Source: Albidovulum denitrificans (lineage in GTDB: Bacteria; Pseudomonadota; Alphaproteobacteria; Rhodobacterales; Rhodobacteraceae). Taken from it: a stretch of DNA of 64,000 nucleotides. The first letter of the stretch is position 1. The number at the start of each line of letters is the position of its first letter. Below are positions 47,922-50,354 of the stretch, in pieces. Location: positions 248,001 through 312,000 of the forward strand of contig NZ_PVEP01000003.1 of the NCBI RefSeq assembly GCF_002973535.1, in the 5' to 3' direction. The notes under the pieces were generated by a model. It had not been told where the DNA came from. It saw nothing but the letters and a program-made list of their open reading frames with translations, and did no database searches. Made by a program: the position numbers and the translations under genes.

Positions 47922-48500
47922 ATGGGCGTGAATGCGAAGGAGAACAGCGTCGACGAGCTTGTCGCGGCCATCGCGGTCGGCGACCGTTTGGCGTTTGACA
48001 CGCTTTACCGCAGGCTCGAACGGCCGCTCTACCGCTTTCTCATCCTAAAATTGAACGATCCGCATCGATCCTCCGACGTACTCCATGACGTGTTTCTGGA
48101 GGTCTGGCGCAGCGCGGCGGCGTTCCGGGGGCAGTCGAAGGCCCAGACATGGATCTTCGCAATCGCCTGGCGAAAGGCGATGGAGGTTCACCGGAAGGGT
48201 GAAAGGGTAACGTATCAGGAGAGTTTGCCGGACCAGATCGACGAAAGCCCCGATGCCGCGACGGCGTTGTCAGCCGCCGAAGATGCAACGGCGGTGCGGG
48301 CATGCCTGAAGGGGTTGAGCGAGGAGCATCGGATGGTGCTTGAGCTGACCTTCTTCGAAGAGATGAGCTACCCGGATATCGGGGCGGTCATGGGCATTCC
48401 CGAGGGGACGGTCAAATCGAGGGTCTATCACGCCAAGCAGCTCATGCTGCGGTGTTTGTCGGCAAAGGGCGCTGTCAGGGGTTCGGGACGTAATGGGTAA
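47922..48500 (+). CDS. ECF-type RNA polymerase sigma factor
   Basis: 192 residues. Region 2 (FDTLYRRLERPLYRFLILKL, then DVLHDVFLEVWRSAAAFRG) and region 4 (LSEEHRMVLELTFFEEMSYP, then EGTVKSRVYHAKQLM) are clear; no region 1 or 3 is present. It would direct RNA polymerase to a small regulon, probably including its own operon. It overlaps the anti-sigma gene by eight bases and heads a three-gene operon with it and a secreted protease. Confidence 0.93.
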   Translation: MGVNAKENSVDELVAAIAVGDRLAFDTLYRRLERPLYRFLILKLNDPHRSSDVLHDVFLEVWRSAAAFRGQSKAQTWIFAIAWRKAMEVHRKGERVTYQESLPDQIDESPDAATALSAAEDATAVRACLKGLSEEHRMVLELTFFEEMSYPDIGAVMGIPEGTVKSRVYHAKQLMLRCLSAKGAVRGSGRNG

Positions 48501-49077
48501 CGACGTGCAACGTGAGATCGAAGAACTTCTGCCGTTCTATCTGAACGGATCGCTGAGCGGGGATGAACATGCCCGCGTCGAGGCGGCGCTGAAGGCGAAT
48601 GAAGGGCTGCGCCAGCAGCTTGAGTTTCTGTCCGCGATTTCCGGGGCGGTGCGGTCGGATGACCCCGCCTCTGCCGCGCCCGGCGATCTGGGTCTGGCGC
48701 GGTTGCGGCGCGACATCGGGCGGCAGCAGCCGGGGCGGTCGGCGCTGCGTTCGGTCGCGGCGCTTGCGGCGGCCTTCATCCTTGGTGTCGGCGTGATGGC
48801 GCTTTGGCCGTCGCTTGACCGGGGGCCGGAGGACGCGATCTATGAACAGGCCAGCGGGCCGGTGGCGAAAGGCGCGCTGATCGTCGCCTTCCGTCCGGGC
48901 GCGACGGCGGAACAGATCTCAACCCTGCTTCTGTCGGTCGACGGGGTGATCGTCGACGGGCCTTCCGCGATCGGGCTCTATCGGGTAGACCTGCCCGAAG
49001 GCGCCGATGCCGGGACCGTGGTGGGCCGCCTTCTGGCAGCGGGCGAGATAGTCGAGAGTGCGCAAAAGGCAGAATGA
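48493..49077 (+). CDS. Membrane anti-sigma factor with C-terminal propeptide-like domain
   Basis: 194 residues. The N-terminus (1-45, EIEELLPFYLNGSLSGDEHA) resembles the anti-sigma domain of ECF regulators that lack the zinc-binding His/Cys set. One membrane helix spans about 85-105. The C-terminal 126-194 region (GALIVAFRPGATAEQISTLL, then GLYRVDLPEG and ESAQKAE) has the pattern of subtilase N-terminal prodomains. The next gene encodes a subtilase and starts in the stop codon (ATGA). This suggests a periplasmic domain that binds the protease. The anti-sigma role is supported by context; the protease-binding role is inference. Confidence 0.82.
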   Translation: MGNDVQREIEELLPFYLNGSLSGDEHARVEAALKANEGLRQQLEFLSAISGAVRSDDPASAAPGDLGLARLRRDIGRQQPGRSALRSVAALAAAFILGVGVMALWPSLDRGPEDAIYEQASGPVAKGALIVAFRPGATAEQISTLLLSVDGVIVDGPSAIGLYRVDLPEGADAGTVVGRLLAAGEIVESAQKAE

Positions 49078-50354
49078 AAGCGTTTGTTGCGACCGTCGCC
49101 GCTTTGGCGATTGTCCTCGGAGCGGGAGAGGGCAGGATGATCGGGGCGGCTTTCGCCGCCGAGCCGACGTCTGAAGGCAGTGAACCCTCTGGTGAGTCGA
49201 CCAAGCCCACCGACCGGGAGCGCGCCCGCGCGCGGGAGAGGAATGAGACGCCCGCCCGCTCCCGCCTGATGACCTTTGGCCGGTCACGGACGCTGGGCAA
49301 TGGCCGCGTCGAATATCTGTCAGTCGGCACGCCCGCGGCGATGGACCGCGCGGCCGAGTACATTGAATCGCTGGGTGCGACCGTCCTGCGGCGCCAGGAC
49401 CTTGGGTCGCTGGGCCTGTCGATGGTGGCCGTCGATCTGAACGAACGCATCTCGGCCTCCGCGCTCCAGCGCCGTCTTCTGGGCGCGGGGATCAGCGTCG
49501 CGCTGGACCGCAACAGCATCTTTGCCCCCTCGGGCGGGTCGCGAAGCTATGCGGCGGACCTGGTGGGCGCGCCTGTGAACCGGACCTGCGCCCTGCCCGG
49601 CAATGTCCGCATCGGCCTGATCGACGGTCCCGTCGATACCGCCGCGCCGGGCCTTTCGAAGATCAATATCGTCAGCCGGACGGTACTGGATGACACCGAC
49701 ACGGCGGCCGATCCGGGCCATGCGACGGGCCTCGTTTCGCTGATCGCCGGTCAGCCGGGGGCGCGCGATGACGAAGGCCTTGCCGTCGGCGCACAGATCT
49801 ATTCGGCGGTGGCCTTCGCGCAGGGGAACAAGGCCGAAGGCAACGGCATGCGGCTGGATCATTTCGCCAGGGGTCTGGACTGGCTGCTTGGCGATAATGT
49901 CGACATCGTCAACATGTCGCTGTCGGGGCCGGACAACCGGGTTCTTTCCACGCTGATGGCAACGGCCAGCGCGCGCGGCGCGACGCTTATCGCCGCGACC
50001 GGCAATCAGGGGCGTGGGCAGGTCGCCTACCCCGCCGCCGATCCGCATGTCATCGCCGTAACGGCCATCGACGCGCGACTTCGGCTTTATCGCGCCGCGA
50101 ACCGGGGCGATGAGGTGGATTTCGCGGCACCGGGCGTCGATCTTCTGGTCTCAGACAGCGGCGGGCGTTCCTATCGTTCGGGGACGTCCTATGCCGCCGC
50201 CATCGCTTCGGCGATCATCGCGCATGAGGTCGGCAAGGGCGTGCGCGGCAAGACGGCCATCGTCGATGCGCTGAAGCGCGACGCCCGTGACCTTGGGGCG
50301 GCGGGGCATGATTCCGATTTCGGCTGGGGCCTGCTTCAGCTTCCGGGCTGCTGA
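49074..50354 (+). CDS. S8 (subtilisin-like) serine protease, exported
   Basis: 426 residues with an N-terminal signal-like segment (VATVAALAIVLGAGEG, ending near AAFAAE), a charged linker, and a prodomain-like stretch at about 78-150. The catalytic domain follows: Asp184 in GLIDGPVD, His216 in GHATGLVSLIAG, oxyanion Asn311 in ATGNQG and Ser372 in GTSYAAAIAS. The triad is complete but the motifs are divergent (IDGPVD for the usual DTG, HATG for HGTH). It likely acts in the periplasm. Its translation is coupled to the anti-sigma gene, so it may cut or be inhibited by that protein. Confidence 0.88.
   Translation: MKAFVATVAALAIVLGAGEGRMIGAAFAAEPTSEGSEPSGESTKPTDRERARARERNETPARSRLMTFGRSRTLGNGRVEYLSVGTPAAMDRAAEYIESLGATVLRRQDLGSLGLSMVAVDLNERISASALQRRLLGAGISVALDRNSIFAPSGGSRSYAADLVGAPVNRTCALPGNVRIGLIDGPVDTAAPGLSKINIVSRTVLDDTDTAADPGHATGLVSLIAGQPGARDDEGLAVGAQIYSAVAFAQGNKAEGNGMRLDHFARGLDWLLGDNVDIVNMSLSGPDNRVLSTLMATASARGATLIAATGNQGRGQVAYPAADPHVIAVTAIDARLRLYRAANRGDEVDFAAPGVDLLVSDSGGRSYRSGTSYAAAIASAIIAHEVGKGVRGKTAIVDALKRDARDLGAAGHDSDFGWGLLQLPGC

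Follow-up and report, generated by a model that had tools for sequence, protein, structure and literature searches.

The window, by which we mean the whole 64,000-nucleotide stretch of Albidovulum denitrificans DNA that was analysed, contains a three-gene cassette in which the membrane anti-sigma factor ends in a domain resembling a subtilase prodomain, and the adjoining gene encodes an exported S8 (subtilase) protease with a prodomain of its own. We favour, with a probability of roughly 0.4, the reading that the cassette is a protease-gated ECF sigma switch, in which the exported protease would dock on the anti-sigma factor and cut it, and the sigma factor would thereby be freed. Cleavage or sensing of the anti-sigma factor by the protease had been suggested beforehand, as one option, from the letters of the sequence, and it is the candidate relationship that fits the evidence best.

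Architecture of the cassette

The ECF sigma, anti-sigma and S8 protease genes occupy positions 47922-50354, all on the + strand, with end overlaps of 8 and 4 bases.

47922-48500, +: ECF sigma factor, 192 aa (Pfam Sigma70_r2, 40.3 bits; Sigma70_r4_2, 52.5 bits)
48493-49077, +: membrane anti-sigma factor, 194 aa, with a C-terminal prodomain-like domain (Pfam, hydropathy)
48511-48594, +: zf-HC2-type anti-sigma stretch, residues 7-34 (Pfam zf-HC2)
48751-48807, +: anti-sigma transmembrane helix, residues 87-105 (best 19-residue hydropathy window)
48841-48858, +: anti-sigma juxtamembrane stretch YEQASG, residues 117-122 (putative cleavage region)
48877-49068, +: anti-sigma prodomain-like domain, residues 129-192, beta-alpha-beta-beta-alpha-beta (Pfam, profile comparison, AlphaFold2, structure matches)
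49074-50354, +: exported S8 (subtilase) protease, 426 aa (Pfam PF00082, 80.9 bits)
49314-49526, +: prodomain of the protease itself, tail strand included, residues 81-151 (AlphaFold2, fold matches)
49533-49544, +: probable protease maturation junction, residues 154-157 (pLDDT below 50; putative cleavage)
49623-49625, +: catalytic Asp184 of the S8 protease (Asp in 55/55 aligned)
49719-49721, +: catalytic His216 of the S8 protease (His in 55/55 aligned)
50187-50189, +: catalytic Ser372 of the S8 protease (Ser in 55/55 aligned)

This anatomy agrees with the original prediction, which had described three genes overlapping by 8 and 4 bases, a middle protein with an anti-sigma N terminus, one helix and a prodomain-like C terminus (now borne out by zf-HC2, hydropathy, and PF22148 together with the predicted fold), and a complete-triad S8 protease with its own prodomain (borne out by Pfam, the three catalytic residues and the AlphaFold2 prodomain at residues 81-151).

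The N terminus of the anti-sigma factor passes the Pfam zf-HC2 cut-off (25.3 bits against 22.2). HxxxCxxC is the zinc ligand motif of zf-HC2 class I anti-sigma factors, among which zinc-free members exist; it is found in 9 of the 59 relatives described below, and the anti-sigma factor in the window has no cysteine, so this copy has no zinc ligands. Hydropathy places one hydrophobic helix within residues 83-109, and the C-terminal domain should be located in the periplasm. The juxtamembrane YEQASG often reads [YF]xxA[SG] among the relatives, and the alignment column of A120 holds alanine in 44 of 60 proteins, a gap in 11 and another residue in 5. Loosely similar juxtamembrane stretches also occur in anti-sigma factors that do not have the domain, which puts the specificity of the motif in doubt; any mimicry by YxxASG of the site at which the protease matures is speculation.

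The protease matches Peptidase_S8 and has Asp184, His216 and Ser372 together with Asn311. The triad is complete in all 55 aligned S8 proteases, that of the window included, and the oxyanion asparagine aligns in 48 of these. The N terminus of the window protease is hydrophobic and signal-peptide-like. Pfam names no prodomain in this protein; in the AlphaFold2 model, blocks at residues 81-150 with pLDDT 91-97 form its own prodomain, of which residues 81-146 have the same order of elements as the anti-sigma domain and are followed by an extra strand (148-151) and then by a low-confidence loop (154-157) that is the probable maturation site. The best fold matches of the protease model were pro-subtilisins, with unautoprocessed pro-subtilisin E first and fervidolysin tenth, and the alignment columns spanned by the first 18 rows of these matches numbered 373 to 426. 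Three related proteases (L014, L016 and L046) have an extra stretch starting C[FV]xPGxxxxxxG ahead of the propeptide, which has no Pfam name in the two that were scanned (L016 and L046), and at a further locus (L015:5745-6152) a separate small protein encoded between the anti-sigma factor and the protease has a similar stretch.

A prodomain-like domain on the anti-sigma factor

The assignment of the C-terminal domain as prodomain-like is well supported, without any single strong match. The original prediction had proposed a profile search against subtilase prodomain families and a structure prediction of the domain, and both came out on its side. In Pfam, PF22148 (Fervidolysin_NPro-like) passed narrowly on residues 119-190, at 21.9 bits against a cut-off of 21, and in a whole-genome search it exceeded the cut-off at a single place, which is this anti-sigma factor. 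At E values up to 0.1 it matched five of the ten members of seed set A1 and, among ten further members, only L081. Because this score is marginal, the predicted fold and the conservation weigh more. AlphaFold2 gave the domain prodomain topology, with the element order beta-alpha-beta-beta-alpha-beta and a pLDDT of 89.5, and the structural matches of this model include the subtilisin propeptides 1scj_B and 1spb_P, POIA1 (1v5i_B), Tk-propeptide and the ORF2 chaperone 3wqb_B. Foldseek with the same model found nothing at an E value of 0.001 or lower and placed EF-1 beta first; ACT domains scored like the subtilisin propeptides, and there were ties with other ferredoxin-like folds. The fold is a common one.

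Profile comparison of the domain with the propeptides of the cognate proteases gave a moderate match, with a probability of 63% (E 6.9e-5) in local mode and 13.9% in global mode, and three control comparisons stayed under 1%. Used alone, the domain's HMM did not find the propeptides of the cognate S8 proteases (best E 0.031), and the domain profile from set A2 found no propeptide among PDB sequences, a ribonuclease J (E 1.7) being its sole match. An AEP motif, which we take to be propeptide-like, stands at the C-terminal end of five distant members (L081, L099, L101, L105 and L106).

Conservation and linkage of the cassette

We searched related genomes with the anti-sigma factor or its domain as query; the protease was not used as a query. 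Matches, a few of them false, came from 8 of the 61 family genomes, 19 of the 385 class genomes and 42 of the 398 phylum genomes, the genome of the window being counted each time. In the class search 19 places were fetched, of which L057-L059 were dropped as non-anti-sigmas. In the phylum search 40 loci were fetched, of which L108 and L110 were dropped as S8 proteases matched in their N-terminal propeptide region, L111 as a separate small protein, and L107, L109 and L112, on reading their sequences, as what we take to be unrelated proteins. This clean-up left 59 relatives in addition to the window, and together they represent 35 numbered genera and one MAG; several genera supply many loci, so that the loci are not independent. 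Kept apart from this 60-locus set are the loci of the caspase follow-up described below (L135-L141) and five alternative loci (L060-L064). On plasmids, tblastn with the anti-sigma factor gave no match.

An S8 gene lies within 0.8 kb of the anti-sigma gene in 54 of the 59 relatives (55/60 counting the window), a count to be read with the fact that S8-linked loci were the source of seed sets A1 and A2 and of most of A4, which may bias the searches towards that kind. An ECF-like sigma factor was found at 56 of the 59 relatives' loci (weakly in L100). Gene order changes among the cassettes, and the S8 linkage persists: the anti-sigma gene is inverted between the other two in four loci (L018, L020, L042 and L076), and the protease stands ahead of the sigma gene in two (L075 and L077). 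Absence of the trio from related genomes had been named as an outcome that would count against the original prediction; the trio is instead widely conserved, and this context reaches well beyond the evidence on which the prediction was made.

As a control we inspected 20 other ECF loci of the same genomes, none of which has an S8 gene and none the domain. These controls were the top of the sigma matches listed, a non-random choice, less the cassettes and L060-L064, whose S8 linkage had been noticed; since S8-linked loci were set aside before the choice, 0/20 understates the background, and three of the stretches (L116, L127 and L129) are shortened by contig ends. Over 23 genomes there were 339 Sigma70_r4_2 matches. 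Some 23 of these belong to cassettes; of the remaining 316 or so, which are without the domain, at least 5 lie near an S8 gene. The same genomes hold 51 S8 matches, about two each, of which 24 are in cassettes and 5 in the alternative loci. A comparison of distance matrices across 54 loci revealed no co-variation specific to the prodomain-like domain, whose partial correlation with the catalytic domain was 0.17; the zinc-finger part reached 0.18.

At seven loci (L014, L016, L041, L043, L045, L050 and L083) a large protein of about 630-730 aa recurs upstream of the cassette, and some of these loci also have a 390-450-aa protein there; the former recurs in six genome groups and the latter in four. 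No Pfam family passed its cut-off in those that were scanned. Both are candidate targets. One genome has two prodomain-bearing anti-sigma factors (L044 and L046) with no adjoining sigma gene by profile.

Caspase-family genes at loci without a linked S8 protease

Five of the 59 relatives have no linked S8 gene, and in four of these (L097, L098, L100 and L104) a caspase-family (C14) gene is present in the fetched stretch, directly after the anti-sigma gene in L097 and L104 and some 2 to 3 kb off in L098 and L100; the fifth, L044, has neither S8 nor C14 in its fetched stretch. Three of the four C14-linked genomes (G663, G733 and G783) have S8 genes elsewhere, so that an S8 partner in trans may exist there, and G642 has none. 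The C14 profile found nothing over the 20 control ECF loci; it matched in six of seven genomes, 1 to 8 times in each genome having any.

In a follow-up of one C14-linked genome and 20 relatives, 8 of the 21 had a match. Among the seven loci fetched, L135-L137 have a sigma factor, a domain-bearing anti-sigma factor and an adjoining C14 gene, in L139 and L140 a longer domain-carrying protein is accompanied by a weak C14 match, and L138 has the longer protein with no C14 profile match. L141 was a false match and was dropped. The domain thus accompanies an exported-looking protease of either class, which suggests that it can work without a linked S8 partner, that docking of an S8 protease is not the whole story, and that a protease cutting the anti-sigma factor is to be preferred over a subtilase inhibitor.

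The C14 products encoded after the anti-sigma gene (L097, L104, L135, L136 and L137) look exported, and an ECF sigma gene precedes except in L104, where the profile found none. L098 and L100 each encode two domain-carrying proteins, with a SulP-type transporter and the C14 gene close by, and L015, an S8 locus, also has a C14 gene upstream.

Promoters and direction of control

A GGAAC-type ECF promoter was found before the sigma gene at none of 57 loci. An ECF-like dyad, TGAACC-N16-CGAC, stands before it at 17 of the 57, in several families and 44 to 68 bases ahead of the aligned start, where mononucleotide shuffles gave 0.07 and the reverse strand 3; a looser form occurs at 24 of the 57 (shuffles 0.98, reverse strand 4). 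The dyad was picked by inspecting the sequences and counted afterwards, so the significance of these counts is inflated. Autoregulation is probable at the dyad-bearing loci, judging from this sequence pattern. The dyad is not in the window, nor in the 13 S8 upstream regions examined, nor before the S8 gene in L075 and L077, whose gene order separates the two promoters.

These results bear on the strongest rival to a gated switch, a doubtful one in our estimation, namely that the protease is an output of the sigma factor only, while the domain senses a ligand or the state of the envelope and its propeptide likeness reflects fold resemblance or an old recruitment. There is precedent for such an output in Sinorhizobium meliloti, where RpoE6 causes a strong increase in expression of SMa0142 (log FC 4.7), a divergent serine protease gene, in an arrangement widely conserved in ECF26 (PMC6180224, in excerpt); since a neighbouring protease gene is a sigma target there, the protease here may likewise be output only. 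On pSymA of S. meliloti strains 1021 and R28 we found sigma and anti-sigma genes transcribed divergently from a gene for an S8 protease belonging to this subfamily, a locus that from gene order and replicon we infer to be that of SMa0142, and neither the domain profile nor Pfam found the prodomain-like domain in its anti-sigma factor. The five alternative loci L060-L064, in the same genomes, combine an S8 protease from the same subfamily with a distinct ECF sigma factor and with an anti-sigma factor that has another, unnamed C-terminal domain, so S8 coupling is possible without the prodomain-like domain. The lack of specific co-variation between domain and protease also speaks for the output-only reading. 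Against a mere output, an anti-sigma factor with a propeptide-like domain beside a propeptide-bearing protease in 55/60 loci would be coincidence, a C14 gene is nearby in four of the five loci where S8 is missing, and the dyad of the sigma gene is absent from the S8 upstream regions examined. A further locus (L143:1659-4526) holds the same second cassette type as L060-L064 and resembles the RpoE6 arrangement.

A missing tail distinguishes the domain from the protease's own propeptide

The AlphaFold2 model of the anti-sigma domain has only two residues after the last strand, and its alignment with the BPN' prosegment, which has 77 residues, stops at residue 72 of the latter, so an I9-type C-terminal tail reaching the active site was not found in the window domain. 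Among the 47 of 60 proteins that align at reference Val187 (the other 13 are uncountable), 35, including the window, have 8 or fewer residues after it and 12 have 9-14. Judged from the model and this alignment, the active-site tail is absent from the window domain and short in most countable relatives. The title of PDB entry 3a3o describes a complex of subtilisin and a Tk-propeptide from which five C-terminal residues are missing, which indicates that a tail-less propeptide can dock. Stopping where the active-site tail would start, the anti-sigma domain looks like a docking domain and not like a classical inhibitor.

The tail also bears on a second rival, in which the domain acts as a POIA1-like inhibitor or reservoir that is tethered to the membrane and restrains the protease there; protease occupancy would report the protease level and set sigma activity, with the anti-sigma factor left uncut. 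We consider this unlikely. In its favour, the domain matches the fold of subtilisin-bound POIA1 (1v5i_B), and the 12 members with 9-14 residues past the reference valine have room for a tail; set against these are the short ends in the other 35, the two residues after the last strand in the model, and the C14 loci, where no linked S8 inhibitor is needed. The original prediction had offered inhibition in trans as one option: its classical form is now less likely here, given that the cognate propeptide has a further strand after the point at which the anti-sigma domain ends, and the C14 loci argue against a purely S8-specific inhibitor. That the domain instead helps the protease to fold in trans, like the Aeromonas ASP chaperone ORF2 that its fold matches (3wqb_B), with sigma released when no protease is folding, is very improbable, as a prodomain is already predicted within the protease itself and the domain also occurs at C14 loci.

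A proposed protease-gated switch and its relation to known systems

The missing tail favours docking followed by cleavage of the anti-sigma factor over inhibition of the protease. In the gated switch that we propose, the anti-sigma factor would hold the adjacently encoded sigma factor at the inner membrane, and its periplasmic domain, a putative copy of a subtilase prodomain minus the active-site tail, would be the docking site for the co-encoded exported protease. The trigger would be the mature protease becoming available once its own propeptide is shed. The docked protease would make the site-1 cut in the short stretch linking the domain to the membrane, an M50 site-2 protease and cytosolic proteases would then free the sigma factor, and this would transcribe the cassette, so that control would run from protease to sigma factor and back to the operon, presumably in this genome too. 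The M50 family PF02163 is present in the genome (best E 6.2e-65); as it is also present in 14 of 14 control genomes, its presence is weak support. Tentatively, the evolutionary reading may be extended: a propeptide could have become the sensory domain of an anti-sigma factor, with the mature protease as the signal that activates its own operon, and the domain could have been redeployed with proteases of the caspase family.

For most ECF sigma factors, to our knowledge, the signal and the protease that makes the first cut are unknown. Here a candidate for the first cut is encoded in the cassette together with a recognisable docking fold, which makes its target-finding directly testable in dozens of genomes, and the exchange of subtilase for caspase around the same anti-sigma domain is a natural experiment on what that domain recognises.

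Under the proposed model, the cassette would resemble DegS-RseA-RpoE in having a membrane anti-sigma factor, an exported serine site-1 protease and a site-2 protease acting after it (PMC8103513, in excerpt). DegS is of the HtrA family and has a PDZ domain, whereas the protease here is a subtilase with its own propeptide. We know of no propeptide-like domain in RseA. Like S. meliloti RpoE6-EcfR6-SMa0142 (ECF26), the cassette combines an ECF sigma factor with a one-helix anti-sigma factor and an adjoining protease; unlike here, the protease gene there is transcribed divergently and, according to the excerpted text of PMC6180224, the C-terminal domain of EcfR6 is likened to that of RsiW. The window anti-sigma factor does not have an EcfR6-type C-terminal domain and has the prodomain-like domain in its place. 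In the type III-E CRISPR system Csx29-Csx30-CASP-sigma, a CHAT (caspase-related) protease likewise cleaves a sigma-factor inhibitor, but that system is triggered by target RNA via Cas7-11, and the excerpt of PMC10028731 mentions no prodomain-like domain. The ECF54 group also has subtilase, carboxypeptidase and CHAT genes in its ECF context (PMC8999054, in excerpt).

Among the papers listed by our searches of the open-licence PMC literature we recognised none that describes a prodomain-bearing anti-sigma factor; the main ECF re-classification may already note the gene context. The original statement that no characterised system of this design is known stands to that extent, except that a sister ECF/protease locus has been published for S. 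meliloti (PMC6180224, in excerpt). POIA1 and the Aeromonas ASP-ORF2 pair, by their PDB titles, share with the anti-sigma domain a propeptide-like fold that acts on a separate subtilase; there the fold stands alone, whereas here it is fused to a membrane anti-sigma factor and, in this protein, its tail is missing. One of the loci dropped from the phylum search encodes a 145-aa lipoprotein-like protein with a propeptide-like stretch (L111:3160-3597), just before an S8 protease that seemingly has its own propeptide, and this small protein is possibly a stand-alone inhibitor or folding helper.
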